A stretch of 64,000 nucleotides of DNA from Methyloversatilis sp. (GTDB lineage: Bacteria > Pseudomonadota > Gammaproteobacteria > Burkholderiales > Rhodocyclaceae): assembly GCF_030696805.1 (NCBI RefSeq), contig NZ_JAUYRO010000019.1, positions 1 through 64,000 on the forward strand. The letters are read 5' to 3'. Positions 18,786-59,961 of the stretch are shown one piece after another. Numbering within the stretch: position 1 is the first letter of the stretch; each line of letters begins with the position of its first letter. The notes under the pieces were generated by a model. The model was given only the letters and a program-made list of their open reading frames with translations. It was not told the origin of the DNA and made no database searches. Made by a program: the position numbers and the translations under genes.

Positions 18786-18789
18786 GGCG

Positions 18790-44724: not shown

Positions 44725-45043
44725 CTGAGTCAGTCCTGGAGTGAAGTTGTCGGGACTGGCTTGCAGAGAGGCTGGCTCGTCCGCGGTCTGTCCGGTGAGA
44801 ACACCGGCAGCGACGCGAGGCGGACTATAATCGAGAATGATTCTTGTTAAAATTAGTGCTGTAATCATCTGATGCGTGAACGCAACTCGGGCCGACCTGC
44901 GGCGGATGGGTAGCCGCGCCTCACCCGGCTCGTTCGCTTGCGCGATTTGTGCGGCAGCCCTGCGGTCGCGCGAGAATGGCGCGCTTCGCCGCACACTTCA
45001 CAACCTGCGCCTTGCCTCTGCTACCGGATCACGGACACCTTGA
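44725..45043. other. Divergent intergenic region between siderophore receptor and feoA
   Basis: This 319-base region holds a Fur-box-like sequence at 44830-44848 and presumably both promoters. The rest is GC-rich and shows no gene I can support. Confidence 0.55.
44830..44848. promoter_or_regulatory. Fur-box-like site
   Basis: ATCGAGAATGATTCTTGTT contains the AATGATTCT core and GAGAAT..ATTCTT symmetry of a Fur box. It lies in an AT-rich patch 105 bases before the siderophore receptor and about 195 before feoA, and could control both. Confidence 0.7.
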
Positions 45044-45310
45044 ATGACCCTGCCTGACAATGAAATGCGGCTGAGCGATGCGGAAACCGGCGCACCCATG
45101 GTGGTGATCGGTCTCGATGACCGTGCCGGACTGCCGGATCTGCAGATGCGCCTGCGCGAGCTGGGCTTCATGGAGGGTGAAGCGGTGTGCGTACTGCGTC
45201 GCGGGCAGCCCGGCGGCGAGCCGCTGGCGGTGCGTATCGGCGTGTCGACCTTTGCACTGCGCCGCATCGAGGCGGCCTGTGTGCGCGTCGCTGCCAGGCC
45301 AGTCAAGTGA
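45044..45310 (+). CDS. feoA: Ferrous iron transport protein FeoA
   Basis: This 88-aa SH3-fold accessory protein of ferrous uptake has RLRELGFMEGEAVCVLRRG and LAVRIGVSTFALRRIEAACV, both typical. It shares one base with feoB (TGATG), so the two are coupled. It helps FeoB in the inner membrane. Confidence 0.93.
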   Translation: MTLPDNEMRLSDAETGAPMVVIGLDDRAGLPDLQMRLRELGFMEGEAVCVLRRGQPGGEPLAVRIGVSTFALRRIEAACVRVAARPVK

Positions 45311-47178
45311 TGACCGCAATACCCATCGAAAGCCGCCGCCTCGCACCGCCGATGCTGGCGCTGGTGGGCAATCCGAATTGCGGCAAGACGGCGCTGTTCA
45401 ATCTGCTGACGGGCAGTCACCAGAAGGTGGCCAATTACGCCGGTGTCACGGTCGAGCGCAAGGAAGGCTGGCTGCGCACGCCGGCCGGCACACGCCTGGC
45501 CGTGCTCGATCTGCCCGGTACCTACAGCCTGGCGCCGAATTCGCCCGACGAACAGGTGACCTGCGACGTGCTCGCCGGCCGGCTGCCAGGTGAGCGTCGC
45601 CCCGATCTGGTGCTGGCGGTGGTCGATGCGACCCAGCTGGCGCGCCAGCTGCGACTGGTGCTGGGCCTGAAGCGGCTCGGTCTGCCGCTGGTCGTCGTGC
45701 TCAACATGGCCGACCTCGCGCGAGCGCGCGGCGTCGACATCGACGTCGAGGCGCTGGCGCACGCGCTTGGCGTCCCGGTCGTATCGACCGTCGCGGTACG
45801 CGGCGGCGGTGCCGATGCGCTGTTCGGATTGCTGGATGCGGCACTGCCTCCGGTGCCGCCTGCAGAATCGGCCGGCAGCATGGTCGATGACCACCGGCAG
45901 GTGAAGCACATCCTCGCGACGCTGGGCCTCGATCGCCTGCCAGCGCATGCGTTCACCGACCGTGCCGACCGCGTGCTGCTGCATCCACTGGCCGGTCCGC
46001 TGCTGCTGTTCGCGCTGCTGTTCCTGATTTTCCAGGCGGTGTTCGCGTGGGCAGAGGCGCCGATGGGCTGGATCGAAGCGGCGACGGCGCTGCTCGGCGA
46101 TGCGGTGGGCCGGATATTGCCGGACGGTCTGCTGCGCAGCCTGCTGACCGACGGCCTGATCGCAGGTCTGGGCGGCGTGCTGGTGTTCCTGCCGCAGATC
46201 GTCATCCTGTTCTTCTTCATCCTGCTGCTCGAAGAGTCCGGCTACCTGCCGCGTGCCGCCTTCCTGCTCGACCGGCTGATGGGCGGCGTCGGGCTGTCCG
46301 GGCGCGCCTTCATCCCGCTGCTGTCGAGCTTTGCCTGCGCGATTCCCGGCATCATGGCCACGCGCACCATCCAGAATCCGCGCGACCGCTGGGTGACCAT
46401 CATGATTGCGCCGCTGATGACCTGTTCCGCCCGGCTGCCCGTTTACGCGCTGCTGATCGGCGCCTTCATTCCGGCGCGCCGCGTGGCCGGCGGACTGGAA
46501 CTGCAGGGGCTGGTGCTGTTCGCGCTCTATCTCGCCGGCATCGTGTCGGCGGTGGCAGTGGCCTGGCTGCTCAAGCGGCTGGGCTCGAAAGGCCGCCAGC
46601 ACACGCTGCTGATGGAATTGCCGGACTACCACTGGCCGTCGTTGCGCAATCTGGCGATCGGCCTGTGGCAGCGCGTGCTCATTTTCCTGCGGCGGGTCGG
46701 CGGCATCATTCTCGCGCTCACCGTGCTGCTGTGGTTTCTGGCCAGCTTCCCGGCCGCGCCCGCTGATTTCGCAGGCGCGCCGATCGAATACAGCTTCGCC
46801 GGCCGGCTCGGGCATTTCCTGCTGCCACTGTTCGAGCCCATCGGTTTCAACTGGCAGATCGCGGTGGCGCTGGTACCCGGCATGGCGGCGCGTGAGGTCG
46901 CGGTGAGCGCACTCGGCACGGTGTATGCGTTGTCGGCCACGGCCGACGATACCGCGCAGGCGCTGGTACCGTTGATCGTTGCCGGCTGGAGTCTGCCGAC
47001 CGCGCTGTCGCTGCTCGCCTGGTATGTGTTCGCGCCGCAGTGCCTGTCGACACTCGCCACGGTACGGCGCGAAACCGGCGGCTGGAGCGCGCCGCTCTTG
47101 ATGGCCGGCTATCTGTTCGCGCTGGCGTATGCAGCGTCGTTCGTCACCTACCGCATTGCGCTGGCCTGCTGCACATGA
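45310..47178 (+). CDS. feoB: Ferrous iron transporter FeoB
   Basis: This 622-aa inner-membrane Fe2+ transporter has an N-terminal G domain: GNPNCGKTALFN (about residue 19), GVTVERKEG, DLPGTYSL and NMAD. A helical linker is followed by a membrane domain with the Gate motifs LEESGYLPRAAFLLDR and SFACAIPGIMATRTI, each with a conserved Cys or charged residue. It is shorter than the E. coli protein but typical of the compact type. It begins on the feoA stop, and its stop overlaps the next small gene. Confidence 0.95.
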   Translation: MTAIPIESRRLAPPMLALVGNPNCGKTALFNLLTGSHQKVANYAGVTVERKEGWLRTPAGTRLAVLDLPGTYSLAPNSPDEQVTCDVLAGRLPGERRPDLVLAVVDATQLARQLRLVLGLKRLGLPLVVVLNMADLARARGVDIDVEALAHALGVPVVSTVAVRGGGADALFGLLDAALPPVPPAESAGSMVDDHRQVKHILATLGLDRLPAHAFTDRADRVLLHPLAGPLLLFALLFLIFQAVFAWAEAPMGWIEAATALLGDAVGRILPDGLLRSLLTDGLIAGLGGVLVFLPQIVILFFFILLLEESGYLPRAAFLLDRLMGGVGLSGRAFIPLLSSFACAIPGIMATRTIQNPRDRWVTIMIAPLMTCSARLPVYALLIGAFIPARRVAGGLELQGLVLFALYLAGIVSAVAVAWLLKRLGSKGRQHTLLMELPDYHWPSLRNLAIGLWQRVLIFLRRVGGIILALTVLLWFLASFPAAPADFAGAPIEYSFAGRLGHFLLPLFEPIGFNWQIAVALVPGMAAREVAVSALGTVYALSATADDTAQALVPLIVAGWSLPTALSLLAWYVFAPQCLSTLATVRRETGGWSAPLLMAGYLFALAYAASFVTYRIALACCT

Positions 47179-47384
47179 TCCTTTCCGTTACCGATCTGCT
47201 GGCACTGGTCATCGTCGGCCTGGCCGCATGGAAGGTGATGCGCGTCGCCCGGGCGCGGCTGCGTCCGCCTGGCGTGTCGGGAAGCAATCCGGGAAGCAAG
47301 TCGGATGCAGACGCGGGCAAGGATGGAAGCGATGATGGCTGCAGCGATTGCCGCCAGTGCGCCGGGCGCGCGTCGCGCCGCTGA
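47175..47384 (+). CDS. FeoB-associated small Cys-rich membrane protein
   Basis: This 69-aa protein has one N-terminal membrane helix (MILSVTDLLALVIVGLAAW), a basic/acidic linker and a C-terminal CSDCRQC motif. This is the layout of the FeoB-associated Cys-rich family. It overlaps feoB by four bases (ATGA). It takes the position that feoC has in enterobacteria and may bind Fe2+ or sense redox. Confidence 0.75.
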   Translation: MILSVTDLLALVIVGLAAWKVMRVARARLRPPGVSGSNPGSKSDADAGKDGSDDGCSDCRQCAGRASRR

Positions 47385-47398
47385 GCGCGCGCCGTGCC

Positions 47399-48187
47399 TC
47401 AGGCGGCCGGCTCGGCCATCAGCAGCGGGCGCGACGTGTGCGGGTCGATCCAGACGCGGCAATCCAGTCCGAAGGCATCGGCCAGCGCGGCCGATTGCAG
47501 CACTTCGAACGGCGCACCGTCGGCCCGGATTCGGCCGTCGGCCAGCAGCACCAGCCGGTCGGCATAGCGGGCCGCAAGATTGAGGTCGTGCACGATGGCC
47601 AGCACGCCGGTCATGCGGCTGTGTGCGCGATCGCGCGCGCAGGCCAGCACGCGGTGCTGCCAGGCGATGTCGAGGGCGGCGACCGGTTCATCGAGCAGCA
47701 GGAAGTGCGCGCCGGGTGTGCCGCGCCAGATCTGTGCCAGCGCGCGCGCCAGATGCACGCGCGCCTGTTCGCCGCCGGACAGCGTGCTGCACAGCCGATC
47801 GGCCATCGCTTCGCAGCCGGTCAGCGCCATGGCGGCGCGCGCGATGGCGCGGTCGTCGGCGCCCGGTCGCCCGCCGTGATGCGGAAATCGGCCGAGGGCG
47901 ACCACCTGCTGCGCGGTGTAGTCGAGATCGCTGCGCTGGTGCTGGGCGTGCACCGCGCGCAGCGTGGCCAGTTCGGCCGCCGGAATGTGGCGCAACGGCC
48001 GGCCGTTGCACGACACGGCATCGCAGGCGGCGTCGATGTCGCCGGACAGCGCGCGCAGCAGTGTGGTCTTGCCAGCGCCATTCGGGCCGATCAGCGCCAG
48101 CATTTCGCCGGGTCGCACGTCGATCGACACGTCGTCGATCAGTCTGCGCTGACCGGCCATGACAGTGAGGTGGCGGGCGCTCAGCAT
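47399..48187 (-). CDS. hmuV: Heme ABC transporter ATP-binding protein
   Basis: This 262-aa ATPase has Walker A GPNGAGKTTLL (about residue 35), signature LSGGEQARVHLARAL, Walker B FLLLDEPVAALD and the switch VHDLN. It powers heme transfer across the inner membrane with HmuU. The gene starts one base after hmuU and ends the hmu operon, convergent with the Feo genes (14 bases). Confidence 0.93.
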   Translation of the reverse strand: MLSARHLTVMAGQRRLIDDVSIDVRPGEMLALIGPNGAGKTTLLRALSGDIDAACDAVSCNGRPLRHIPAAELATLRAVHAQHQRSDLDYTAQQVVALGRFPHHGGRPGADDRAIARAAMALTGCEAMADRLCSTLSGGEQARVHLARALAQIWRGTPGAHFLLLDEPVAALDIAWQHRVLACARDRAHSRMTGVLAIVHDLNLAARYADRLVLLADGRIRADGAPFEVLQSAALADAFGLDCRVWIDPHTSRPLLMAEPAA

Positions 48188-48188
48188 G

Positions 48189-49238
48189 TCAGTGTTCCTG
48201 CGCGGCGCGCCGGCGCAGCAGCAGCATGAAAAAGGGCGCGCCGAACAGCGCGGTCAAGACGCCGATCGGCAGCTCAGCCGGACTGACCCAGGTGCGTGCC
48301 GCACTGTCGGCCAGCACGACCAGCAAGGCGCCGGCCAGCGCACTGGCCGGCAGCAGCATGTGGTGCGACGGCCCGGCCAGACGGCGCGCCAGATGGGGCG
48401 CAATCAGGCCGATGAAACCGATGGTGCCGGTCAGCGCAGTGGTGGCGCCGACCGACAGTGCGATCAACACCACACAGGCGCGATTCAGCGTGCCGACCGC
48501 CACGCCCAGGTGCGCCGCCTGGGCTTCGCCCAGCGCCAGCGCATCGAGTGGCCCGGCCTTGCGAAGCAGCAGCGCGAGTGCCACGCCGACTGCGACGGCG
48601 GCGGCGATGACGCCCGGCCAGGTGGCGCCGGCCAGGCTGCCCAGCGTCCAGAACGTGAATTGTCGAACCTGGGCGTCGCTGCCCATGAACAGCAGCAGGC
48701 CGATGCCCGACATGGCGAGCGCGTTGATGGCGATGCCCGACAGCAGCATCAGCGTGACCGAACTGCGGCCATTGCGGCGCGAGGCGGCATAGACCAGCGC
48801 CGTGGTCAGCGCCGCGCCAGCGAAGGCGGTCAGCGGCAGCAACGCACTGGCGGCCCAGCCCCCCGTGCTCATGGCGCGCTCGCCAAGGATGACGACGGCG
48901 GCTGCGGCCAGTGCAGCGCCACTGCTGACGCCGACCAGACCGGGGTCGGCGAGCGGGTTGCGCATCAGGCCCTGCATGGCGGCACCGGCGATGCCCATGC
49001 CGGCGCCGGCGATTACGCCGAGCAGCACGCGCGGCAGACGTAGCGTCCAGATCACCAGATCGGCGTCCGACCCGACCTGCTGCCCGAGCAGTGCGCTGAC
49101 GACGGTCGCCGCCGGCAGGTCCACCGCACCACTGCCCAGCGCATGGACGACGGCGCCGATCAGCGCGACCGCCAGCAGCCAGAGCGTCATGCCGGCGGGC
49201 GGGCCGATGCGCGGCAACTCGACACTGCGCAGGTTCAT
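48189..49238 (-). CDS. hmuU: Heme ABC transporter permease
   Basis: This 349-aa FecCD-type permease has about ten helices. Recognisable parts are RLPRVLLGVIAGAGMGIAGAAMQGLMRNPLADPGLVG, WTLGSLAGATW, and TGTIGFIGLIAPHLAR with the coupling-helix Gly. Start 49238 overlaps the hmuT stop (ATGA). The frame is open far upstream, but that part is antisense-like filler. It forms the membrane channel for heme. Confidence 0.94.
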   Translation of the reverse strand: MNLRSVELPRIGPPAGMTLWLLAVALIGAVVHALGSGAVDLPAATVVSALLGQQVGSDADLVIWTLRLPRVLLGVIAGAGMGIAGAAMQGLMRNPLADPGLVGVSSGAALAAAAVVILGERAMSTGGWAASALLPLTAFAGAALTTALVYAASRRNGRSSVTLMLLSGIAINALAMSGIGLLLFMGSDAQVRQFTFWTLGSLAGATWPGVIAAAVAVGVALALLLRKAGPLDALALGEAQAAHLGVAVGTLNRACVVLIALSVGATTALTGTIGFIGLIAPHLARRLAGPSHHMLLPASALAGALLVVLADSAARTWVSPAELPIGVLTALFGAPFFMLLLRRRAAQEH

Positions 49239-50074
49239 GGCGTGCGCATCCGCTGCGCCAGATCGAGCACCGCAGCCGGCAGACGTGGCCCGAAACCGAG
49301 CAGACGCAGCGCATCCAGTGTCACCAGCCGGCCGGCTCGCGCCGCGGGCAGGGCGGCCAGACCGGGTCGGGCGAGGAAGGCGTTGCGTCCACCGGCGGTG
49401 GCGATCGCTTCGTCGGTCGTGACGATGAGGTCGGGGGCCGCCGCCAGGGCCGCTTCCAGCGTCAGCGGGCGGTAGCCGTTGAAGCGGCCGGCCATGACAT
49501 TGACCGCACCTGCATAGTCGATCATGGCTGCGGCGGCCGTGCCGTCGCCGGCGACCATCGGGCTGGCACCACCATGATCGAGAATGAACAGCGCACGCGG
49601 GCGCCCCGGCAAGGCCGCGACCCGTTGCCGCGCCGCCGCCCAGTCGGCGTCGAAGCGCTCGGCCAGCGTGCGGCCGGCGTCGTCCAGCGCGAGCGAGGCC
49701 GCGATGGCGCGGATGGTGCGACCGACCTGATCGGCACGGTGGCCGGCGTCGAGCTGCAGCACGCGCACGCCGGCGCCCTGCAGCTGGGTCAGCGCAACCG
49801 GCGGACCGGCGTCGGCGGTGGCGATCAGCAGCGTCGGGCGCATCGACAACACGCCTTCGGCCGCCAGCGCACGCTGGTAGCCGACCCGGGGCAGTGCCTG
49901 CGCCGCCGCGGGAAAGGTGCTGGTGGTGTCGGTCGCGACCACGCGGGCACCGGCGCCGAGCGCGTAGACGATTTCGGTCACCGCACCGCCGACCGTGACC
50001 AGACGCTGTGCGCTGTCGGCCAGCGCCGGGCCGCACAAAGCGGCCACAACACTCAGCAGGGCGAGACGCTTCAT
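49235..50074 (-). CDS. hmuT: Periplasmic heme-binding protein
   Basis: This 279-aa periplasmic binding protein has a Sec signal (MKRLALLSVVAALCGPALA). The fold of class III binding proteins is seen in RLVTVGGAVTEIVYALGAG, LPRVGYQRALAAEGVLSMRPTLLIA and NAFLARPGLAALPAAR. HmuT/ShuT proteins bind heme through a Tyr; GYQRAL may hold it. The ATG overlaps the hmuS stop. Confidence 0.92.
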   Translation of the reverse strand: MKRLALLSVVAALCGPALADSAQRLVTVGGAVTEIVYALGAGARVVATDTTSTFPAAAQALPRVGYQRALAAEGVLSMRPTLLIATADAGPPVALTQLQGAGVRVLQLDAGHRADQVGRTIRAIAASLALDDAGRTLAERFDADWAAARQRVAALPGRPRALFILDHGGASPMVAGDGTAAAAMIDYAGAVNVMAGRFNGYRPLTLEAALAAAPDLIVTTDEAIATAGGRNAFLARPGLAALPAARAGRLVTLDALRLLGFGPRLPAAVLDLAQRMRTP

Positions 50075-51135
50075 GCGGCGACAGTGTCGGACGACTGGCA
50101 GACCTGACCCACCAGCGCACGCCAGTCCTCGCGTTCCGGCTTGCCCGGTTTGCGTTCGCCGAAGAACAGCGCAATCGTTTCGCCACTGGCGTCGAGCAAT
50201 TCGACCGAAGTGACGATGCCATCTGCCGTCGGCTTGCGCACCAGCCAGGTTTCCGCCACCAGATCGTGCCGCAAGTGCAGGTTGAATCCGGGGTCGAGCA
50301 CGTTCAGCCAGTCGCCCATGACTTCGATGCGATGCACCGGCCCGGTATGTATCTGGATCATGCCCGGGTTGCCGACGAAGCACATGATGGATACCGACTG
50401 CGCCGCCGCCTGTTCCAGCAGCGGGCGCGACAGCGCGTTGTCCAGCCGTTCGGCATGGCCGTCCGGTGCCAGCTGCATGGCCTGTCGGCGCGACACCTTG
50501 TGACGGCGCAGCAGCGGGAAGAAGTCGTGCGTGTCCTGCATGGCCAGCCAGTCGCGACGGAAGGCGTCGGCGTCGATGTCGGCCAGGGGCGTTTCCGCTT
50601 CCGGCGCTGCGTTGCGCAGTTCGACCTGTTCACCTGCCTGCTGGTCGTCAGCCGTGTAGGTCGCCACCAGTGCGTGCCAGGCGTCGAGCTTCGTGCCGGC
50701 GCGCGAGAACACCTTGTGCACGGCGTCGCCGTGGCGGTCGTAGAACTGGAAGCTGAGCGAGGTGCCGCGCGGCGTTTCGTCGGTCACGGCATAACCATGC
50801 GTCCATTGACCGTAGAAGATGCGCAGGTCGATCACGCTGCCCAGTGCCAGCCCGACATGGGCGTTGCCTGACATCTGTTCGAAGCTGCCGGTCTTTTCAT
50901 GCACGGCGGATTCATTGCGGGTCAGCACCATGACTTCGCCCAGTTGCGGCATGCGCTGGAACAGGGCATCGAACGGACCGTGCAGGCGTATGGCATCGCG
51001 ACCGACGCCGCAGGCAATGGCTTCCCCTTCGCTGACGCCCAGTGCTGCCGCGGCGTCGCGGTTGCGCAGGCGCCGTTCGGCTTTCAGGGCGTGGAAGGTG
51101 TGGTAAAGGCTTTCGGGATCGGCAGTGCGGGTCAT
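50071..51135 (-). CDS. hmuS: Heme utilisation/degradation protein
   Basis: This 354-aa cytoplasmic HmuS/HemS/ChuX-type protein has two tandem repeats (LTRNESAVHEKTGSFEQMSGNAHVGLALG; MCFVGNPGMIQIHTGPVHRIEVMGDWLNVLDP). It accepts heme from the transporter and releases iron or passes heme on. ATG 51135 has a GGAGA site. It lies 35 bases after the PEP-CTERM gene and overlaps hmuT by four bases. Confidence 0.93.
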   Translation of the reverse strand: MTRTADPESLYHTFHALKAERRLRNRDAAAALGVSEGEAIACGVGRDAIRLHGPFDALFQRMPQLGEVMVLTRNESAVHEKTGSFEQMSGNAHVGLALGSVIDLRIFYGQWTHGYAVTDETPRGTSLSFQFYDRHGDAVHKVFSRAGTKLDAWHALVATYTADDQQAGEQVELRNAAPEAETPLADIDADAFRRDWLAMQDTHDFFPLLRRHKVSRRQAMQLAPDGHAERLDNALSRPLLEQAAAQSVSIMCFVGNPGMIQIHTGPVHRIEVMGDWLNVLDPGFNLHLRHDLVAETWLVRKPTADGIVTSVELLDASGETIALFFGERKPGKPEREDWRALVGQVCQSSDTVAA

Positions 51136-51170
51136 GGAAATCTCCGGTTCGGGGTGGGCGGGGCGGCGCG

Positions 51171-51818
51171 TCAGGCGCGGCGGCGGGCGAGGGTGCCAAG
51201 CAGGCCGAGGCCGGCCAGCAGCGACAGCCAGGTGGCGGGTTCGGGCACCGGTGCGGCGAGCACGGCCAGCTGGTCGAGGCTCAGGTGGGCCGCCGGGCTG
51301 GCGAAGGCGAATTGCAGGGCGAGCGGATCGGTCACCGTCCAGCGCCACCAGGCTTCTTCCTCGCTGCCACCGAAGCCGCCCAGCGTGGCGCTGAACGACA
51401 CCACCTTGCTGGCTGCAACGCCATTGAGCGTTGCGATGTCGTTGGCCGCAGTGCCCTGGGTGGCGATGCGCAGCCACACGTCGTACGTGCCCGCGGCCGG
51501 GGCGGCGAGATCGACGATGAAGTTCGCAGCGCCGCCACTGCTGTACAGGTTGCCGCTGCCGGTCAGGAAGGATCCGGCAGCCGGATTGGTCTGGCTCAGC
51601 GAGCCGCTGCCGGCGATGTCGGGGGTAGCGTCAACGCTGATGTTGTCGAATACATTCCATTCGGCATAAACGTCGGCGCTGGCCCAGGGCGTGGCGGAGG
51701 TGGCACCGTTGCCGTCAAAACCGGCCAGTGGGGTATCCCAGACCGCTCCGGCGGCGAACACGGAAGAAGAAGACAGCACGCACAGCGCGCCGGTCGAGCA
51801 CAGACGACGGAAAGACAT
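51171..51818 (-). CDS. PEP-CTERM sorted protein in the hmu operon
   Basis: This 215-aa exported protein has a signal peptide (LCVLSSSSVFAAG), a beta-sandwich-like body (AGTYDVWLRIATQG, EEEAWWRWTVTDP) and the exosortase sorting signal VPEPATWLSLLAGLGLL followed by ARRRA. It sits only 35 bases before hmuS, in the same direction, within the Fur-controlled heme operon. The body has few His, Met or Tyr, so heme coordination is not obvious; it might bind a host protein, heme stacked on Trp, or a partner receptor. Confidence 0.85.
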   Translation of the reverse strand: MSFRRLCSTGALCVLSSSSVFAAGAVWDTPLAGFDGNGATSATPWASADVYAEWNVFDNISVDATPDIAGSGSLSQTNPAAGSFLTGSGNLYSSGGAANFIVDLAAPAAGTYDVWLRIATQGTAANDIATLNGVAASKVVSFSATLGGFGGSEEEAWWRWTVTDPLALQFAFASPAAHLSLDQLAVLAAPVPEPATWLSLLAGLGLLGTLARRRA

Positions 51819-51938
51819 GATGGGCCTCGTTCAGAGCCATGCATCCCTTCCCCGCGAAGGCGACTGCTCAGGTGTTGTTTCGGATGATGTGAGTCCGCGG
51901 CCCCGCGCCGCCGGACTGTGCTGCACGAACGGTTCCGT

Positions 51939-52142
51939 TCAGCCGGCGGCGAAATCGATCACGTAGCGGTACTGCTTGCCGCAATCGATGATCACTTCCT
52001 TCTGCCCGCGTTTGAGCAGGCGCACTTCCACGCTGAGCGACCCGAATCCGTCATGCCGTATCAGCTCGTCGAGCAGGCCGGCAAGTCGGGATTTCAGGGC
52101 GTCTGAAGATGAAGCGTTCAGACCTGACGTGGCGTCGTGCAT
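51939..52142 (-). CDS. Small protein at the head of the heme operon
   Basis: This 67-aa product is rich in charged residues: LKSRLAGLLDELIRHDGFG and EVRLLKRGQKEVIIDCGKQYRYVIDF. It has one Cys and no signal or membrane helix. The final part resembles the beta hairpin of HemP-like proteins in shape (EVIIDCGKQYRYVIDF) but not in sequence. It begins 51 bases after a Fur-box-like site and leads the hmu genes. I do not know its family. Confidence 0.6.
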   Translation of the reverse strand: MHDATSGLNASSSDALKSRLAGLLDELIRHDGFGSLSVEVRLLKRGQKEVIIDCGKQYRYVIDFAAG

Positions 52143-52192
52143 GGTGACCGGAATGTCCGTCGCGGCAGCGCCGCGCTGTGTTGAACCGGTTC

Positions 52193-52211
52193 AAATAATA
52201 ATGATTCTCAG
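52193..52211. promoter_or_regulatory. Fur-box-like site upstream of the heme operon
   Basis: On the minus strand the site reads GAGAATCATTATTATTT within an AT-rich island, close to the Fur consensus GATAATGATAATCATTATC. It lies 51 bases upstream of the 67-aa gene, so iron-repressed expression of the hmu operon is expected. Confidence 0.78.
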
Positions 52212-52277
52212 TTCGGTGTCAAGCGAAACAGCTGGAGGGCGGCGGGAGCTTGTCCCACCGGCGCGCAGTGCGCAGGC

Positions 52278-52649
52278 TCAACTGGCGTGCGGACGCAACA
52301 CGAAGCGGTCGGTCAGGGCGGGCGTGCCGTGCGGCGTGACCGAGGGGTTGAGCACGTCGAGCAGATACGCGCCTTCGCCCAGTCGCGCAAAAGTCGATGC
52401 GTCGAGCCAGTATTCGCAACCGGCGATCTCGCCCAGCTTCACGTCGGAGTCGCCGAGCGCGATCGAGCCGATTGGCCGACACAGCGGCTGCACGCTTTCG
52501 GCCATCGCACCGTGGCGGAACATCAGCGGGCCGTAGCGCGCAGACAGCCGGATGATGAGCATGACGGCGTCAATGCTGGCGGTCAGCGATACGACCGGAA
52601 CATGACCGGCACCGTGGGGCGAGCATTCAGGGTCGGAGGAATGTGGCAT
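52278..52649 (-). CDS. DUF779-like protein lacking the usual Cys pair
   Basis: This 123-aa protein matches my memory of DUF779: LIIRLSARYGPLMF then LCRP, GDSDVKLGEIAGCEYWLD and LDVLNPS near the end. Family members normally carry a CC pair after the MFHQSGG stretch; here it is replaced by MFRHGAMAESVQPLCRP. The function of DUF779 is unknown; members often lie next to aldehyde dehydrogenase genes, but none is here. ATG 52649 is uncertain (no strong ribosome site). It lies between the heme receptor and the hmu operon on the same strand. Confidence 0.6.
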   Translation of the reverse strand: MPHSSDPECSPHGAGHVPVVSLTASIDAVMLIIRLSARYGPLMFRHGAMAESVQPLCRPIGSIALGDSDVKLGEIAGCEYWLDASTFARLGEGAYLLDVLNPSVTPHGTPALTDRFVLRPHAS

Positions 52650-52972
52650 GTGCGGATGTCGAGGCGCGACGTGTGGGTCATGTGCAATGGTTCGTGTGCG
52701 TCGCACCTGCAGGCCGGCTCACACGACGGTTGAATCAGCAAATCCTGCGCCATGTCAGGCGATGCGCTGCAGGATACGGGCGGGAAAGGAAAACTGCGGA
52801 ATTCTCCGGATGGCCGTTTGCGCGGGTGTCCAGTAACGGTGCACCGGACTGTCCATGGCTGAAACGTCACCCTGCTGAAATACCAGTAAATGCGCGGATT
52901 TTGTCAGCCTCGCACGATAGTCGGAATATGAAAAACAGTTCCGGTTTGTGCGATGACGAGGCATCGGCATGA
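52650..52972. other. Gap between the heme receptor and the DUF779-like gene
   Basis: These 323 bases contain no clear terminator. A very small frame on the minus strand (52755-52856, 33 aa, starting MDSPVHRYWTPAQTAIRR) has weak ribosome-site support. An AT-richer zone at 52880-52960 could hold the promoter for the DUF779-like gene. Confidence 0.4.
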
Positions 52973-55420
52973 TCAGAAGCGCAGCGTCAGCGACAGCTTC
53001 GCGCTGCGGCCCGGCGCCTGCACGCCGACCGCGCCGGCGAAGCCGTCCTGCAGGCAATACACCTCGTCGGTCAGATTGTCGATGTTGAGCCGCAGCACGG
53101 CGTCAGGTGTCACACGCCAACTGGCGAACAGGTCGAACACCCGCGCACCAAACTGGGTACCGATACGACCGATGCCTTCGATGAACAGCGTGCCCGGGCG
53201 TGAGCACACGGTGGGTTCGGTGCCTGCGCTGGCGCGCCGCTCGCCGATGTCGCGCATGCGCAGACCGGCTTCGACCCGTCCGTCGAAGCCGCGCACGCCG
53301 GCGCTGGCGCTCAGCGTGTCGCCTGGCACACCATAGATCGCGTAGTCGGTGCCGGCGACCGGGTTCGTGATGCGGCCGTCGATCTGCGACCAGGCGAGTG
53401 TGGCGAAGCTGCGCAGTCCGTCGTAGGACACCTCGAGTTCGCTGCCCTTGCGTCGTTCGCGACCTGGCTGACCCACACTGCCGCCAATATTCGAGATGGA
53501 TTGCAGCAGATGACGGGTGTGGATGTCGTACCAGGTCGCGCGTGCCTGCCAGCGCCCGTCGGCGGCACTCGTCGGCTGCGGCGACCACGCGATCGTCAGT
53601 TCGTGGTTGGACGATTCCTGCGGCCGATAGAGCCCGCCGCAGATTTCGTTTGCCGGCGCCAGATCGAGCGCCGCGTTGTAAGGAAGGCCAATGCCCGACG
53701 GGTCATACAGCGGATTAGCGGCCGTGACCGGGCTGTTGGCGGGGCCCAGGTCAAGAGGGGTGCTTTTCGCGCAGCGGCTGGCAAAACTGCCGCGCGCGAA
53801 ATATTCGTCGACCAATGGCGGCCGGAAGGCTTCGTTGTAGCGTGCGGTGAGCGATACATCACTGGCCGGTATGCGCCAGGTCAGCGCGAGCGCTGGCGAC
53901 ACCTTGACAAAGCGCAGGTCGGGCGACTGGCCGGCGGCAATCATGTTGGTGCGCGTCTGGCCTTCGGCGCTCACGTGGTAGCGGTCGATGCGCGCACCCG
54001 GCGTCAGCGTGAACGCGCCGTAGGTCATCGCGTTCTCGATGATCAGCGCGTCGGACACCTTGTCGCCGGGCGGCTGTGCTTCGTTGAAACCGCCAGGATA
54101 ATTATTCGCATTGGTGTTGGCGTTCGACGTCACGCGCACGATGTCGCGGCTGTTGCGGATGCCCTGGTAACCCACGGTCAGCACGCCGCGCAGCTCGCCC
54201 AGCGTGTAGCGCAGGTCATTGAACAGTTCGCCGGTCCAGATGGCATAGCGCCAGTCGTCGTTGCAGCGGTCGACCCGGAAGGCGGCCGGCAGCAGTCGCG
54301 ACGGTGACACGCAGATGCGGCTCTGGCCGATCAGGTGCAGGTCGGCCAGTTCGGTCGTTTCGTAGGCCAGCGTGCCGCGCAGTGCGATCCATGAATCCGG
54401 CGGCAGATAGCGCAGCGACAGATTGGTCGTGGTGTCGTCGATGCTGCGCTGGACGATGCCGAAGCCGCCGGCACCGCTTGCGGTCGCGTCGTATGGCGCG
54501 CGCTCGGGCCCTCCGGTGTAGCGCGTCTGGCTCAGTTCGATCAGCAGATCGTCGGTGGCGTAGAAACTCGCCTTGACAAAGCGGCTTTCCGACGATGTGG
54601 CGGTCAGGTCGAGGCGCTCGCCGTCGGGCAGGCGGAAGTCATCGGAATCGCGCCGCGCGACCGACACGATGAGGTCGAGGTGGGCGTTCGGCCGGCCATA
54701 GACGGTCACCATGCGCAACCGCTCGCGGCTGTTCCAGTTGTAGCCGTATTTCACCTCGCTGCCGAAGGTCTGGCCCGGCTTCAGGAAGTCAGACGCCGAT
54801 TTGGTGGTGGCCGATACAGTGCCGCCAAGTGCGCCCGACCCGGCGGTAACTGACGGGCCGCGCTCGACCTGCAGTGCCTTGAGCAGTTCAGGCTCGATGA
54901 ACACACCGCTTCCGAAGCGGTACTTTTCGAAGCCCTTGACCGCGCCGTCGACCTTGAACAGCACGTCCTCGTTGTCGGAAAAGCCGCGCAGATTGAATTT
55001 CATGCCGCTGGCGCGCGGTCCGCCATCGACTGCCACGCCGGGTATGTCCTTGAGGATGTCGAAAATGGTGCTGGCCTGGCGCCGCTCGATTGCGGCGGCA
55101 TTGATGACGGTGACCGGGCGGTCCGGCGGCAGTTCTATCTCGACCGGGCGCTGCAGCTCGCGTTCGTCGGTCACCTCGACTTCGGGCAGCACGGTCGGGT
55201 CGTCGCTGATTGCCTCGGCGACTTTCCGTACGTCGGGCAGCGCAGCGGACGGTGCAGTCGATCGGGCACTCTGTTCCCGGGTGACGCGGTCGGGTGCGCT
55301 CGTGCCCTGTGCACCGGCCGCCGACGCGGCGAGACAGGCGAACGCGCACAGTCCGGCGGCAGGCCAGGAGGCGGAGCGGCGGAAGATTCGCCTTGCGGCT
55401 GTGGAGGGCTGGGGTGTCAC
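52973..55420 (-). CDS. TonB-dependent heme/hemoglobin receptor
   Basis: This 815-aa outer-membrane receptor has a signal peptide (SWPAAGLCAFACLAASAAGAQ), a long proline/acid linker, a plug domain (FDILKDIPGVAVDGGPRASGMKFNLRGF, VERGPSVTAGSGALGGTVSATTKSA) and a barrel ending RSAKLSLTLRF. The plug fits heme/lactoferrin-type receptors (HemR/TdhA). The heme receptor signature appears only in altered form (NEAFRPPLVDEYFARG instead of FRAP..NPNL). Position beside hmu and PEP-CTERM genes supports heme. The start codon is GTG 55420, with poor ribosome-site support. Confidence 0.85.
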   Translation of the reverse strand: MTPQPSTAARRIFRRSASWPAAGLCAFACLAASAAGAQGTSAPDRVTREQSARSTAPSAALPDVRKVAEAISDDPTVLPEVEVTDERELQRPVEIELPPDRPVTVINAAAIERRQASTIFDILKDIPGVAVDGGPRASGMKFNLRGFSDNEDVLFKVDGAVKGFEKYRFGSGVFIEPELLKALQVERGPSVTAGSGALGGTVSATTKSASDFLKPGQTFGSEVKYGYNWNSRERLRMVTVYGRPNAHLDLIVSVARRDSDDFRLPDGERLDLTATSSESRFVKASFYATDDLLIELSQTRYTGGPERAPYDATASGAGGFGIVQRSIDDTTTNLSLRYLPPDSWIALRGTLAYETTELADLHLIGQSRICVSPSRLLPAAFRVDRCNDDWRYAIWTGELFNDLRYTLGELRGVLTVGYQGIRNSRDIVRVTSNANTNANNYPGGFNEAQPPGDKVSDALIIENAMTYGAFTLTPGARIDRYHVSAEGQTRTNMIAAGQSPDLRFVKVSPALALTWRIPASDVSLTARYNEAFRPPLVDEYFARGSFASRCAKSTPLDLGPANSPVTAANPLYDPSGIGLPYNAALDLAPANEICGGLYRPQESSNHELTIAWSPQPTSAADGRWQARATWYDIHTRHLLQSISNIGGSVGQPGRERRKGSELEVSYDGLRSFATLAWSQIDGRITNPVAGTDYAIYGVPGDTLSASAGVRGFDGRVEAGLRMRDIGERRASAGTEPTVCSRPGTLFIEGIGRIGTQFGARVFDLFASWRVTPDAVLRLNIDNLTDEVYCLQDGFAGAVGVQAPGRSAKLSLTLRF

Positions 55421-55501
55421 GGGAGGTCTGCAACGGATGCGGCGCGCAGCGCGCGCCGCAGGGTGGGCCGCCGGACCTGATCGTCCGGCGGTGGGCGGCG
55501 A

Positions 55502-56257
55502 TCAGCCTTTCGTGATGCGGCGACGCGCGCTCAGCGTGATCAGCCCCAGACCGCCCAGCATCAGCGCCCAGGTTTCCGGTTCGGGCACCGGTGCCGTCAC
55601 CAGCTGGTCCAGTTGAAAGGCTTCGGTCTGCGAGTGGGTGTCGGTCCCGAAGGTGATGCGGAAGCTGTCGACCGGCACGGCGACGCCCAATGCCGCGAGA
55701 TTCCACGTGAAGGTGGCGTGGTTCGGGTTGTTCGGGTCCGAAGCCACGACCTGACCGGTGAAGAAGTCGGTGTAGCTGAGGTTTTCGGTTTCCACCAGCG
55801 AGGCAGTCAGGAACTGAGTGCCGTTGTTGTAGCTCAGGCGGGGCTCGTAACCGGGTTCGAACAGGCCATCGACGCCATTGGCGCCACGGCTGATGTTGAT
55901 ATAGCTCTGGAACACGATGCTGGTCAGTCCTTCGACCGCGTCGGCGACCTTCATTTCGAAGCTCGAACCTGCGCCGCTGAACTGATAGAGCCCGGCCGAC
56001 GCCGGGTAGGCACCACCCGACATCTTGCGGAATATCGTGTCGCCCGCGCTGCCGTCGACGTTGGCGACCAGGCCGGCGATCAGTTGCGCGGTCGTGATGC
56101 GGCCAGCCGTCAGATTGTTGAAACCGTCGCTGGCGACCGAATCGGCCAGTGAGGTGAAGGATTCGTGCGCGGTGGCCGCGACCGACTGACCGGCGAATGC
56201 AAAGGAGAGTACGGCGGCGGTGGTGAGGGCTGCGCTGGGCAGGCGTGACGTGATCAT
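55502..56257 (-). CDS. PEP-CTERM sorted protein adjacent to the heme receptor
   Basis: This 251-aa exported protein has a signal peptide (AALTTAAVLSFAFAGQSVAA). It ends with the exosortase signal VPEPETWALMLGGLGLI and then SARRR. The mature domain has segments FNNLTAGRITTAQLIAGLV, SSFEMKVADAVEGLTSIVF and PRLSYNNGTQFLTASLVETENLSYTDFF, which look beta-rich; I do not recognise the fold. It lies 81 bases before the receptor gene on the same strand. ATG 56257 follows GAGAGG. A surface-exposed partner of the receptor is the natural guess. Confidence 0.85.
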   Translation of the reverse strand: MITSRLPSAALTTAAVLSFAFAGQSVAATAHESFTSLADSVASDGFNNLTAGRITTAQLIAGLVANVDGSAGDTIFRKMSGGAYPASAGLYQFSGAGSSFEMKVADAVEGLTSIVFQSYINISRGANGVDGLFEPGYEPRLSYNNGTQFLTASLVETENLSYTDFFTGQVVASDPNNPNHATFTWNLAALGVAVPVDSFRITFGTDTHSQTEAFQLDQLVTAPVPEPETWALMLGGLGLITLSARRRITKG

Positions 56258-56567
56258 GGTTGACCTCTCGAAGCGGGTTGAAGATGTGGAGCCGGCGCGG
56301 ATGCGCGGCCGTTGACAGGTGACGCTCCCGGTTGCCGCAGGACAGCGATGGGAACCGGTGATGCAGATCGATGAAGCGAACAGCGACATGTCAGCGTCTC
56401 CTGAAGATGCGTGACTGGCTGGATCGCGTGAGCGGATCTGGCTGGCAGCCCCGGCCGCGGCGCGGGCGGGGGAAAGGGAAAGCAGCAGCGAAGAACAAGC
56501 AGCAGCTGGAAAGCCACGGCAGGCGGATCGGGGCAGGGCGCCCGATCAACCTTGGCCAGGCGCGAGA
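56258..56567. other. Gap between S4 paralog and PEP-CTERM gene
   Basis: This 310-base region is GC-rich with a purine-rich patch near 56466-56510. I see no Fur box, no perfect terminator and no gene. It probably holds the promoter for the PEP-CTERM and receptor genes. Confidence 0.4.
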
Positions 56568-57182
56568 TCAGACGCGCAGGGCGTAGAACTCGACCACCTT
56601 CTGAGCTTCGAATGCGAAGGGCGTCGCATCGCCCGGCGGCAGATGAACGAGGCGCAGGCTCAGCGTTGCGGCGTCGAAGGCGATCCATTCAGCCCGTTCG
56701 AGCGGCGGTGTCTGCAGCGCATCGACCACGCTCTGGACGGTGCGACCCCTGTCGGTCAGGGTGATGGTGTCGCCGACGCGCAGCCGGATTGACGGAATGT
56801 TCACGCGCCGTCCGTTGAGCAGGACATGCTTGTGGCGTACCAGCTGGCGTGCCGCCGGAATCGTCGGTGCCAGGCCGCCGCGGAACACGATGTTGTCGAT
56901 CCGACGCTCGAGCAGTTCGACCAGTTTTTCGCCGGTCGGCAGTTTCGAGCGTTCGGCTTCACGGAACACGCCGCGTAGTTGCGTTTCGTTGAGGCCGTAG
57001 TTGTAGCGCAGCTTCTGCTTTTCCATCAGCTGGGCGCCGAATTCCGATTTGCGGCGGTTCGGACGGGCGCCATGCTGGCCGGGCGGCGAGGTGCGGTTTT
57101 CGATGTTCTTGCGGGTCAGACCGGGCAGGTCGGTGCCCAGTGCGCGCAGCACGCGCAGGCGGGGGCCGGTGTAGCGGGACAT
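56568..57182 (-). CDS. Ribosomal protein S4 paralog, Cys-free cyanobacterial/plastid type
   Basis: This 204-aa protein is clearly S4. It starts MSRYTGPRLRVLR and continues LPGLTRKNIENRTSPPGQHG, SEFGAQLMEKQKLRYNYGL, LLERRIDNIVFR and APTIPAARQLVRHKHVLLNGRRVNIPS. These segments resemble cyanobacterial and chloroplast S4 more than the housekeeping betaproteobacterial S4 as I remember it. It lacks zinc-binding Cys. It sits between iron-uptake genes, 17 bases after an 81-aa gene whose promoter has a Fur-box-like site. It is probably an iron-responsive spare S4 or an RNA regulator; the main rpsD should be in a ribosomal operon elsewhere. Confidence 0.9.
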   Translation of the reverse strand: MSRYTGPRLRVLRALGTDLPGLTRKNIENRTSPPGQHGARPNRRKSEFGAQLMEKQKLRYNYGLNETQLRGVFREAERSKLPTGEKLVELLERRIDNIVFRGGLAPTIPAARQLVRHKHVLLNGRRVNIPSIRLRVGDTITLTDRGRTVQSVVDALQTPPLERAEWIAFDAATLSLRLVHLPPGDATPFAFEAQKVVEFYALRV

Positions 57183-57199
57183 GTTCGGGGTTCTCCGGA

Positions 57200-57445
57200 T
57201 CAGTGGGCGGCGCGCCGGCCGGCATCGCCGACGGCATGCAGGCTCCAGCGGCCGATGAGTGCGTCGCACACCTCTCGCATCAGGGGATCGGCGCGCTCGT
57301 CCTCGGCCACCACTTCGAGATGGCGGATCACCATCTGGGCGACTTCCGGGCACGGACGTTCCGCAAACCGGGTCATGACGAACAGCGTGGCCGCGGCCAG
57401 CATGTTCGGACTGGCGTCGCCAGTGGCACTGTGTTCGGTCGTCAT
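57200..57445 (-). CDS. Small helical protein upstream of the S4 paralog
   Basis: This 81-aa protein reads LAAATLFVMTRFAERPCPEVAQMVIRHLEVVAED and ends in an Arg/Ala-rich tail. It is helical and has two Cys (RPCPEV, EVCDALIG). I have seen similar short proteins near iron genes in betaproteobacteria but cannot name the family. ATG 57445 has an excellent GGAGGAT site. It is the first gene after a Fur-box-like sequence and lies 17 bases before the S4 paralog. Confidence 0.65.
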   Translation of the reverse strand: MTTEHSATGDASPNMLAAATLFVMTRFAERPCPEVAQMVIRHLEVVAEDERADPLMREVCDALIGRWSLHAVGDAGRRAAH

Positions 57446-57544
57446 ACCTGCATCCTCCGGCGGTTGGGCGTGCGGTGCACGGGGTGGCTGGCGGGTGGCT
57501 GCCGGGGCAGCAGGCTGGCGCATGTCCTGTTCGGTAATGAATAG

Positions 57545-57563
57545 GAATGATTCGCATTCAATC
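57545..57563. promoter_or_regulatory. Fur-box-like site upstream of the S4 paralog operon
   Basis: GAATGATTCGCATTCAATC contains a symmetric GAATG-ATTCG-CATTC core within an AT-rich patch, 100 bases before the 81-aa gene. It fits a Fur box about as well as the sites at the other iron genes here. Confidence 0.7.
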
Positions 57564-57641
57564 ACGCAGGTTGCGGCGTGTCAAGCGTCGCCGTGCGTGC
57601 AGCCGGTGAAGCAATGTGTCGGCAGCCGGCCGGTCGCGACG

Positions 57642-57668
57642 AAAAAAAACCGCCGGTCAGGGCGGTTT
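57642..57668 (-). terminator. Terminator after exbD
   Basis: On the minus strand AAACCGCC and GGCGGTTT form an 8-bp stem with a 6-base loop, followed by a run of T (A run at 57642-57649). It lies 19 bases past the exbD stop and closes the hemP-to-exbD operon. Confidence 0.85.
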
Positions 57669-57687
57669 CTTTCAGGGCGCAGACGCC

Positions 57688-58107
57688 TTACTTCGCGCTG
57701 GAAGGATCCGTCACGAAGCCGATGCGGGTGAGGCCGAGCCGTGCCGCCTCGCTCATGACGTATGCCACCGAGCGGTAGGGTACGTTCTGGTCGGCACGCA
57801 GCTGGATCTCTGCGCTCTTGTCGCGCGCAGCCGCCTCCTGCAGCTTCACCTTCAGCGTTTCCTTGTCGATCTTCTCGCCCGACCAGAACAGCTGCTCGTC
57901 GGCACCGATCGCAATCTGGATGTTCTCCGGTGGCAGTTCGTTCGCGGAGGTCGATTCCTTGGGCAGGTCGACTTTCACCGCGTGGGTCAGCAGCGGTGCG
58001 GTCACCATGAAGATGATCAGCAGCACCAGCATCACGTCGATCAGCGGAATCATGTTGATTTCCGCCATCGGCCCGTCGTCTTCCTGTTCGAAACTTGCAA
58101 AGGCCAT
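57688..58107 (-). CDS. exbD: Biopolymer transport protein ExbD
   Basis: This 139-aa inner-membrane protein has one helix (MIPLIDVMLVLLIIFMVTAPL) with the proton-path Asp in PLIDVMLVLL, and a periplasmic domain (LRADQNVPYRSVAYVM). With ExbB it uses the proton gradient to energise TonB. It lies 14 bases after exbB. Confidence 0.94.
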   Translation of the reverse strand: MAFASFEQEDDGPMAEINMIPLIDVMLVLLIIFMVTAPLLTHAVKVDLPKESTSANELPPENIQIAIGADEQLFWSGEKIDKETLKVKLQEAAARDKSAEIQLRADQNVPYRSVAYVMSEAARLGLTRIGFVTDPSSAK

Positions 58108-58121
58108 GACCGTGCTCCCGC

Positions 58122-58892
58122 TCAGTGCGCCGGACGCGCGGCGTCGCGGCCGTGCTCGACCAGCGACAGCACGCGGTCGCCGGTGGCTTTCGGATCATTC
58201 GTGCCGACGTCCTTGATGCCCGTGGACAGCATGACGAACACGTCGTGCGCGAAGCTGTTCAGTTCGGCCATGACATTGCGCGTCGAACGGGCGAAAAAGT
58301 TGAATGCCAGCGCCGCCGGGATGGCGGTGGCCAGACCGATGGCGGTCATGATGAGCGCCTCGCCGACCGGGCCGGCCACCTTGTCCAGCGTGCCCTGACC
58401 GGACATGCCGATCGCCAGCAGCGCGTGATAGATCCCCCACACCGTGCCCAGCAGACCGATGAAGGGCGCGCTTGACGCGACCGATGCGAGAAAGGTCTGG
58501 CCGTACTCCATGCGACTGCGGTCGCGTTCGATCGAACGCTTCAGCGCACGGGTCAGGAATTCGTCGGCGCTGCCGGTGGCGATCAGGCCGCGCGCGCCTG
58601 CCTTGCCGTTGCGCAGCGTTTCGATTGCGCTGAAACCCTCATGCACCAGATGCGAAAAAGGGTCGGTGACGCCATTGGAACGCATGTCGCGCGCCACGTC
58701 TTCCAGTGACGATGCGTTCCAGAAGCGGTCCATGAACTGGCCGCTGGCACTGCGCTGGCGCAGTGCGACGATGCCCTTGAGCACGATCAGGAACCAGGTG
58801 CCGATGGAGGCGAGCGCCATCAGCACGACGATGGTGATTGCGACAGCATCCGCGTTCGACAGGAAGTGCGCAAAACCCAGTGATTCATTCAT
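58122..58892 (-). CDS. exbB: Biopolymer transport protein ExbB
   Basis: This 256-aa MotA/TolQ/ExbB proton-channel family member has three helices (AITIVVLMALASIGTWFLIV; VASSAPFIGLLGTVWGIYHALLAI; GEALIMTAIGLATAIPAALAFNFF). The GLLGTVWGI and ATAIPA motifs are diagnostic. ATG 58892 has GGAGA; an in-frame longer start exists at 58934. It lies between tonB and exbD. Confidence 0.95.
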   Translation of the reverse strand: MNESLGFAHFLSNADAVAITIVVLMALASIGTWFLIVLKGIVALRQRSASGQFMDRFWNASSLEDVARDMRSNGVTDPFSHLVHEGFSAIETLRNGKAGARGLIATGSADEFLTRALKRSIERDRSRMEYGQTFLASVASSAPFIGLLGTVWGIYHALLAIGMSGQGTLDKVAGPVGEALIMTAIGLATAIPAALAFNFFARSTRNVMAELNSFAHDVFVMLSTGIKDVGTNDPKATGDRVLSLVEHGRDAARPAH

Positions 58893-58979
58893 CAAGACTC
58901 TCCATGTGAAGCCAGATTCAAAGCCATAGTGCAAAAAAGGATCGCCGCGCAGTGTACGCCAGCGGTTGCGCCGGTCAAA

Positions 58980-59792: not shown

Positions 59793-59961
59793 ACGGGTGA
59801 CGACCGGCGGACAGGGGCCATCAAGGGGCGGGCGGGCAACGTCACGGCAGGCATTGTGGGAAGGAACATCAGTGCTACTTCAACGTCGGTTGAGGGCCGT
59901 AGTCGTGACGGGAAGGGAGCGGCGGGCTGCTATTACCCATCCCGCCCCTCTGAAAGGCAGC

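Follow-up and report, generated by a model that had tools for sequence, protein, structure and literature searches.

A PEP-CTERM protein family linked to an unusual branch of heme-type TonB-dependent receptors suggests an undescribed two-part system for heme capture

The Isd proteins of Gram-positive bacteria, which carry a sortase LPXTG tag and NEAT domains, are tagged surface proteins whose genes accompany those for heme uptake and are controlled by iron. In HmuY/HmuR and HpuA/HpuB, a surface partner is encoded beside its own TonB receptor, the partners being lipoproteins of other folds. Most proteins with a PEP-CTERM tag have, to our knowledge, no known job. The roles given to PEP-CTERM proteins and exosortase in published abstracts include floc formation, motility, biofilm and scytonemin production. 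The closest precedent for the proteins considered here is ZepA (All3515), a PEP-CTERM exoprotein for zinc uptake under the FUR-family regulator Zur; some ZepA neighbourhoods contain TonB receptors and other PEP-CTERM genes, and the word heme is absent from the main text of the paper that describes it (PMC10957091). The ChuPRSTUV operon, as outlined in PMC9131926, consists of a Fur box, a small first gene, a receptor and then STUV, with no PEP-CTERM gene among the genes set out there.

Here we describe a locus from Methyloversatilis sp., lying in a window (the whole stretch of DNA that was analysed) of 64,000 nucleotides, in which two PEP-CTERM proteins are encoded among heme uptake genes. All the genes named lie on the minus strand. 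A complete HmuSTUV set sits in one cluster: the heme-degrading/carrier protein HmuS (50071-51135; PF05171 at 271.7 bits, PF06228 at 200.4 bits) is followed downstream by the periplasmic binding protein HmuT (49235-50074; PF01497, 119.3 bits), the permease HmuU (48189-49238; PF01032, 288.6 bits) and the heme ABC ATPase HmuV (47399-48187; NF010068, 290.2 bits against a cut-off of 261). The first PEP-CTERM protein, PEP2 (51171-51818, 215 amino acids, with a beta-rich body), ends 35 nt before hmuS, and the second, PEP1 (55502-56257, 251 amino acids), ends 81 nt before a TonB-dependent receptor (52973-55420), in agreement with a sequence-only reading of this DNA. That reading was also right about their tails, both ORFs exceeding the PF07589 cut-off of 20.7 (30.8 and 32.1 bits); the signal peptides of both were assigned by eye. 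Between PEP2 and the receptor lie a conserved 67 amino acid protein, here called 'small' (51939-52142), and a DUF779 protein (52278-52706) that is kept in nine of ten same-genus loci. Further upstream are genes which we take, on sequence features, to be exbD (57688-58107), exbB (58122-58934) and tonB (58980-59792), a probable energising complex.

The genome is rich in PEP-CTERM proteins, with 71 matches at E <=0.05 in 4.19 Mb, 32 of them over the cut-off. In 8.9 kb, 0.15 matches would be expected, giving a probability of two or more of ~0.01, uncorrected for the other places that were looked at. With some 71 matches, two at a heme locus could be chance hitch-hiking, and so we turned to conservation, on which the case rests.

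Conservation of the neighbourhood, the check that the sequence-only reading had itself named, speaks strongly for PEP2, whilst PEP1 is kept at the locus only within the genus. PEP2 searches identified an intact homologue in 32 genomes or records, and in all 32 a copy is found in a heme-type receptor cluster. The taxa concerned include Methylophilus, Methylobacillus, Methylovorus, Aquabacterium, MAGs of Burkholderiales and distant gammaproteobacteria, linkage being seen in four of four distant genomes. The conserved core comprises 'small', one to four copies of PEP2 and the receptor; hmuSTUV is often close by, and a Fur-box-like site usually stands upstream of the core. Sixteen loci were taken from a search of genome contigs: the receptor is clustered with PEP2 at every one, 'small' also at 14 and HmuS also at nine. 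Within the genus, PEP2 is present in 11 of 13 genomes, both genomes without it being without HmuS also, and the full gene order is seen at nine of ten loci, the tenth (in genome G310) lacking PEP1 and the DUF779 gene. The single PEP2 match among plasmids, in A. olei, is a complete small-PEP2-receptor-hmuSTUV cluster; a plasmid search with the window receptor gave no match at E 1e-60. Gene order varies between groups, showing that the linkage has outlived rearrangement, and for PEP2 we therefore reject chance arising from PEP-CTERM abundance. PEP2-like paralogues also occur away from heme loci (two in G116 and one in G381), and the sole PEP2-like match in G175 is weak (E 9e-4), interrupted by stops and distant from its heme locus.

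Beyond the abundance of PEP-CTERM proteins, hitch-hiking draws support from PEP1, whose four distant homologues, one pair in G025 and another in G072, have no hmu or heme-receptor match around them; with PEP2 linked in 32 of 32 across several gene orders, we nonetheless regard it as extremely improbable as an account of the locus. At one of these sites (L039), a gene with weak likeness to siderophore receptors (23% to the receptor at 42529-44994) is found ~4 kb from the PEP1 homologue. Because of where its distant homologues lie, we reject PEP1 as an equal partner of PEP2. Profile comparison of the two gave a probability of 0.8% and the predicted structure of PEP1 was useless (pLDDT 39, from two sequences), and PEP1 is thus treated as a genus-level addition, which may do a job similar to that of PEP2. 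One point in favour of partnership is that, whilst PEP1 is found in nine of ten same-genus loci, a PEP2 paralogue fills its slot in the tenth, G310.

PEP2 also follows exosortase. It was found in seven of 23 sampled genomes with both exosortase and HmuS, compared with 0/92 with exosortase only (p 6e-6) and 0/29 with HmuS only (p 0.002), a count of PEP2-search matches only that leaves out G005, found by another route. No usable match was seen in the remaining 16 of the 23 (15 counting G005). A PF09721 search for exosortase gave two matches in the genome of the window itself (G000) and matches in G005, G025, G029, G072, G116, G157 and G254. A generic count found tagged ORFs in 10 of the 23 genomes that have both exosortase and HmuS against 0/29 without exosortase, G116 being counted at its PEP2 locus; since this includes G175, where a ZepA-family member (273 bits against NF040463) is among the tagged genes, and G297, which is probably unrelated, we rely on the PEP2 count instead.

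What kind of protein is PEP2? All 23 aligned members match the PEP-CTERM model (E <=1) and the C-terminal tag is nearly always PEP-CTERM or VPLPA-CTERM-like, although no tag model was matched by one of the G381 copies, and the PEP2 domain of G558, joined to a kelch-like domain, has no sorting tag. The body contains a conserved G-N-[ILV]-Y-[ST]-like motif in which Tyr92 is invariant in 23/23; among residue types that commonly serve as ligands it alone is invariant, the alignment containing no invariant His, Met or Cys. Structure prediction, proposed for both bodies, was informative for PEP2 alone, where a structure search revealed a weak likeness to a CBM-type sandwich. Short WGG..PW lectin repeats, brought up by a PEP2-profile search of solved structures, were taken as chance (best E 0.0081). 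The likeness to Isd that the sequence-only reading had drawn is accordingly functional and does not extend to the family level: no NEAT domain was detected in the 23 members by profile scan or among the best 50 listed fold matches, an LPXTG tag is replaced by a PEP-CTERM tail, and PEP2 belongs to Gram-negative bacteria with an outer-membrane receptor. ZepA shares with PEP2 its signal peptide, PEP-CTERM tag and metal uptake setting, but is tied to zinc and Zur in the account cited above, and PEP1, PEP2 and two PEP2 homologues gave no match to the ZepA/all3515 model NF040463 at E <=1. The floc protein PepA has the same kind of tag, but PEP2 falls under the cut-off of its model (NF033554).

The weak CBM-like fold makes a glycan ligand possible. 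PEP2 might then be an accessory that binds no heme, its sandwich attaching to exopolysaccharide or to the receptor so as to position receptor or hemoproteins, or to gate the receptor, which alone would bind heme. The lack of an invariant His, Met or Cys would suit this, as would the abstracts that tie PEP-CTERM proteins and exosortase to exopolysaccharide or flocs. However, the fold match is weak and a fold says little about ligand, and Methylobacillus clusters contain tandem, diversified PEP2 copies with two receptors, a pattern better fitted to ligand-binding variants. We consider such an accessory role rather unlikely and prefer a PEP2 that itself probably catches heme or a hemoprotein, a view drawn from sequence comparison.

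Like the partners in HmuY/HmuR and HpuA/HpuB, PEP2 would be a surface protein encoded beside its own TonB receptor, the difference being that those partners are lipoproteins and PEP2 bears an exosortase-type tag. The window receptor had been called heme-type; heme/hemoglobin models are indeed its best matches, but it scores under both curated cut-offs (TIGR01785, 246.9 against 316.85; TIGR01786, 215.9 against 323.75). In a tree of 47 receptors retrieved with the window receptor, nearly all PEP2-linked receptors fall in one clade, with three changes of PEP2 label compared with 15.9 in shuffles, a test run with locus L178 labelled 'no' before its diverged PEP2 was recognised; just 21 of 45 other HmuS loci yielded a receptor, so distant receptors are missing from this tree. 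After hand correction of L178, every one of the clade's 24 rows belongs to a PEP2 locus, L164, on a long branch, being placed just outside. In place of the usual NPDL-type box, the clade has a loop, unlike that of other heme-locus receptors, with a Cys and a Tyr found in 24/24 PEP2-clade receptors and 0/23 others (columns chosen because they differ, with clade lists taken from the tree). The A. olei receptor keeps the Cys but has Phe for Tyr.

None of five PEP2-clade receptors scanned passes either curated cut-off, whereas ten of ten scanned from the other clade (23 receptors) pass at least one. It could thus be that receptor and PEP2 import some other iron or metal chelate, hmuSTUV being merely adjacent. 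ZepA offers a zinc precedent; HmuS, HmuT and HmuU gave no match in the locus DNA covered for four Methylophilus and two Methylovorus loci, and in G116 HmuS is on a different contig from PEP2. Against this, hmuS is in the cluster not only at the nine loci mentioned but in all 11 PEP2-bearing genus genomes and on the A. olei plasmid, the heme models remain the best matches of the clade receptors, and the PEP2 loci of G005 and G558 have ordinary-clade receptors that pass a heme cut-off. A ligand other than heme is, in our judgement, distinctly improbable.

The Fur-box-like site of the earlier reading is present (52191-52215, overlapping 13/19 matches at 52191-52209 and 52197-52215), but the first gene beyond it is 'small', unmentioned in that reading, which separates it from PEP2. 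Three places in the window reach 13/19 on either strand, the others being 44833-44851 and 54097-54115; the last falls within the receptor gene. Of 15 loci scanned for a site no more than 100 nt from 'small', 11 have one of 13-16/19 and four have none; genus loci have one of 13-15/19 in ten of ten (one genome being shared with the 15-locus set), and A. olei one of 14/19. The order Fur box, small first gene, receptor and STUV recalls ChuPRSTUV as outlined in its source, from which the locus differs in having a PEP-CTERM gene and a 'small' without a Pfam family: the 13 members scanned, considered also as candidate HemP/HmuP regulators, had no credible Pfam match. 'Small' occurs in eight of 300 genomes of the order, seven with PEP2 by search and the eighth G005, which has a diverged PEP2 copy. 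The export tag and copy amplification of PEP2 would also suit a sponge binding surplus extracellular heme against toxicity and not feeding the receptor; as the upstream site suggests expression in iron shortage, when a sink is unneeded, we think this very improbable.

Of the heme-capture interpretation, kinship to the Isd family is not supported, and what stands is the conserved PEP2 locus, with the recurrent Fur-box-like site, exosortase co-occurrence and a matching receptor clade altered in an outer loop supporting an extracellular role in heme uptake. We judge it somewhat probable that PEP2, processed by exosortase, serves outside the cytoplasm as the partner of one specialised branch of heme-type TonB-dependent receptors. 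Iron shortage would lead Fur to release the small-PEP2-receptor unit; PEP2 would be exported, lose its tag to exosortase and remain on the cell surface or within the exopolysaccharide, where it would bind heme or a hemoprotein, possibly close to Tyr92, for transfer to the receptor, which would admit heme for HmuTUV and HmuS. M10-like proteases with sorting-tag-like tails are present in two genomes, where they might free heme from hemoproteins; among four genomes of the G005 family and 51 of the G429 order, homologues were confined to the one query genome in each set, and the cassette is thus known from two genomes only. More tentatively, and with slightly less than even confidence, we propose an exosortase-sorted, two-part system for capturing heme or hemoproteins, in which the CBM-like protein at the surface and its receptor clade evolved together, the heme loop of the receptors being rebuilt for docking, and in which surface metalloproteases that digest hemoproteins help in some lineages. 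This would be a Gram-negative system working on the principle of Isd and, alongside the zinc of ZepA, would link a second nutrient with exosortase.

Exopolysaccharide and flocs are the usual context in which exosortase is discussed. The link by gene order between PEP2 and its receptor clade would give a PEP-CTERM family a concrete function, extracellular heme capture in environmental bacteria, and, if true, exosortase itself would gain an assay, growth on heme, whilst the remodelled receptor loop would sharply predict which receptors need a partner.

The heme genes of the Methyloversatilis window lie on the minus strand in the order tonB-exbB-exbD, a gene that we take from its likeness to be ribosomal S4-like (about 56577-57200, the only gene between exbD and PEP1), PEP1 (55502-56257), a TonB-dependent heme-type receptor (52973-55420), a DUF779 gene (52278-52706), a Fur-box-like site (52191-52215), a 67-aa gene here called small (51939-52142), PEP2 (51171-51818) and hmuS, hmuT, hmuU and hmuV (47399-51135). 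The sequence-only reading saw two PEP-CTERM proteins here, PEP2 35 nt before hmuS and PEP1 81 nt before the receptor; both gaps are correct on re-reading, and both proteins score above the PEP-CTERM cut-off. The genome has two exosortase matches and 71 PEP-CTERM matches at E up to 0.05 (32 above cut-off), and with such abundance the closeness of PEP proteins to heme genes is by itself little proof. The wider iron region (42529-60441) also includes a siderophore receptor (42529-44994, above the TIGR01783 cut-off) and, presumably, FeoB-like, exbBD-tonB and bacterioferritin-like genes, the last at 59962-60441.

A stronger line of evidence would be a neighbourhood conserved in related genomes, the check proposed earlier, and this was sought for PEP2. 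When the body of PEP2 was searched with its tail left off, eight of 300 genomes of the order gave a match. One match (G175, E 9e-4) was set aside, having stops inside the sequence; the remaining seven genomes, the window genome among them, all have a PEP2 copy in a heme-type receptor cluster, that of G116 consisting of receptor and small, with HmuS on a separate contig. PEP2 is present in 11 of 13 genomes of the genus, and the two without it likewise lack HmuS. The whole arrangement is kept in nine of the ten genus loci fetched, while the tenth (G310) lacks the DUF779 gene and carries another PEP2 in place of PEP1. In two genus loci (L074 and L080) the HmuV match is split into two pieces, perhaps through a frameshift or an error of assembly. 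Scanning species genomes with one peptide pattern, which is not exhaustive, gave at least 16 PEP2 loci (six from genomes already counted), with a receptor in the cluster in 16/16. Profile searching across 369 genomes of the class brought in four more, distant ones, again with a receptor cluster in all four, and the plasmid collection yielded one record, Aquabacterium olei pTB101, which carries a full small-PEP2-receptor-hmuSTUV cluster (11623-18897 of locus L182). The searches thus total 32 distinct genomes or records, each with one or more copies clustered with a heme-type receptor (32/33 if G175 is included). Additional to these is G005, where small led to a heme cluster with a PEP2 copy that has diverged (38% over 174 aa). 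Paralogues outside heme loci number two in G116 and one in G381.

Co-occurrence tells a similar story. Exosortase is found in 115 of the 300 order genomes, HmuS in 52 and both in 23; the PEP2 search of the order found it in seven of these 23, against 0/29 with HmuS only (p 0.002) and 0/92 with exosortase only (p 6e-6), p-values that are optimistic because the genomes share kinship.

Gene order varies. The window genus has receptor ... small-PEP2-hmuSTUV; L044 and L049 have hmuSTUV-small-PEP2-receptor, as does L052 but without a small match; L045 and L046 have small-PEP2-receptor-tonB-hmuSTUV, L055 small-PEP2 x2-receptor-hmuSTUV and L179 receptor-small-PEP2-hmuSTUV. Methylobacillus L053 and L057 (PEP2-receptor-small-PEP2 x3-receptor-hmuSTUV) carry three paralogues in tandem and a fourth adjoining another receptor. 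Four Methylophilus loci and Methylovorus L054 and L056 have small-PEP2-receptor, with no HmuS, HmuT or HmuU within the locus DNA examined. Across these orders small-PEP2-receptor is the most constant part.

The receptors themselves are distinctive. In a tree of 47 found with the window receptor as query, the PEP2-linked receptors fall into a single well-supported clade of 24, apart from those of G005 and G558, which are placed among ordinary receptors; the PEP2 label changes three times, against a mean of 15.9 when shuffled, in a test run with the label of L178, where PEP2 has since been found, uncorrected. A Cys and a Tyr follow what we take to be the FRAP box in 24/24 clade receptors and 0/23 others, and the presumed NPDL-type box is absent from the clade and present in nearly all other receptors. 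The A. olei receptor keeps the loop Cys, with Phe in place of Tyr. None of five clade receptors scanned reached a curated heme cut-off, whereas all ten scanned from outside the clade passed at least one. Judged from these motifs, PEP2's receptor would mostly be the one with a rebuilt outer heme loop, a pairing to be expected if the partner protein, PEP2, were to bring ligand to it.

Fur-like sites suggest possible iron control. In 11 of 15 loci small has a site of at least 13/19 no more than 100 nt away, and for these 11 the proportion of equally long stretches of the respective locus with as good a score is 0.016 to 0.081; L045 and L046 have a 12/19 site at about -260 to -280, and none was found near small in L044 and L049, where small follows hmuV as part of a longer cluster. 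In the genus a site of 13-15/19 stands at -73 to -85 in 10/10 loci, most of which have equally good sites elsewhere; in A. olei the site at -65 scores 14/19, the top score of the scanned strand. Other 13/19 places in the window are 54097 and 44833, the latter (44833-44851) at the 5' end of the siderophore receptor ORF. Each site is singly weak, and it is their recurrence that hints at iron control.

All 23 aligned PEP2 members have a PEP-CTERM tail. Among distant copies, L178 and the first of L176 exceed the VPLPA-CTERM cut-off, and no tag model matched another copy in L176. That of L179 (9447-11225) lacks the tag, its PEP2-like domain being joined to a kelch-like propeller with, by eye, an EF-hand-like end. 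The model built from 23 sequences has a mean pLDDT of 76.5, with most core blocks at 81-95, and predicts a beta-sandwich-like body followed by a tail helix. Nothing in the PDB matched it at E 0.001 or better; the first entries were a GH98 endoxylanase (3.8e-3) and the CBM35 2w1w (4.9e-3), with many CBM35/CBM6 below and TM-scores to the query of 0.20-0.36. All 23 share Tyr92, three Trp, Glu155 and Gln183, and the Tyr is present in the distant copies inspected as well.

Other tailed proteins occur at some heme loci. Between small and receptor, G005 has four genes with PEP-CTERM-like tails. They code for the PEP2 copy, for an unknown protein and for two metalloprotease-like ones (PF00413 24.2 bits, cut-off 24; NF038122 48.2 bits, under the cut-off of 80), the second of which has a tail under the Pfam cut-off. 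By eye, G429, from another order, has counterparts of all four beside its receptor, with VPLPA-like tails of which PEP2's alone reaches cut-off. The similar cassette in these two orders (L090 9979-12425, L178 11262-13732) combines a protein weakly like DNRLRE with two M10-like metalloproteases, and their tails are tag-like; such protease genes were found in G005 and G429 only among the genomes searched. In G175, PEP-CTERM genes adjoin an ordinary heme locus (L120, 1616-6490), one a strong member (273 bits) of the ZepA/all3515 family, so surface proteins for zinc and for heme may be neighbours.

No exosortase-linked heme system was described in the titles or abstract openings found for PEP-CTERM or exosortase with heme, hemin, or TonB and iron, or for PEP-CTERM with exosortase since 2018, nor among the entries listed by broader searches, in mainly open literature, so absence is not proven. 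In passages of PMC11072679 the heme wording is unrelated to such a link. The main text on ZepA (PMC10957091), a PEP-CTERM exoprotein for zinc uptake, does not contain the word heme, and the heme uptake operon ChuPRSTUV (PMC9131926) has no PEP-CTERM gene. Taken together, these results identify PEP2 as a real, conserved partner family of a heme-receptor branch, undescribed in the literature searched. It very probably works with the receptor, and we lean slightly towards PEP2 itself catching heme or a hemoprotein.
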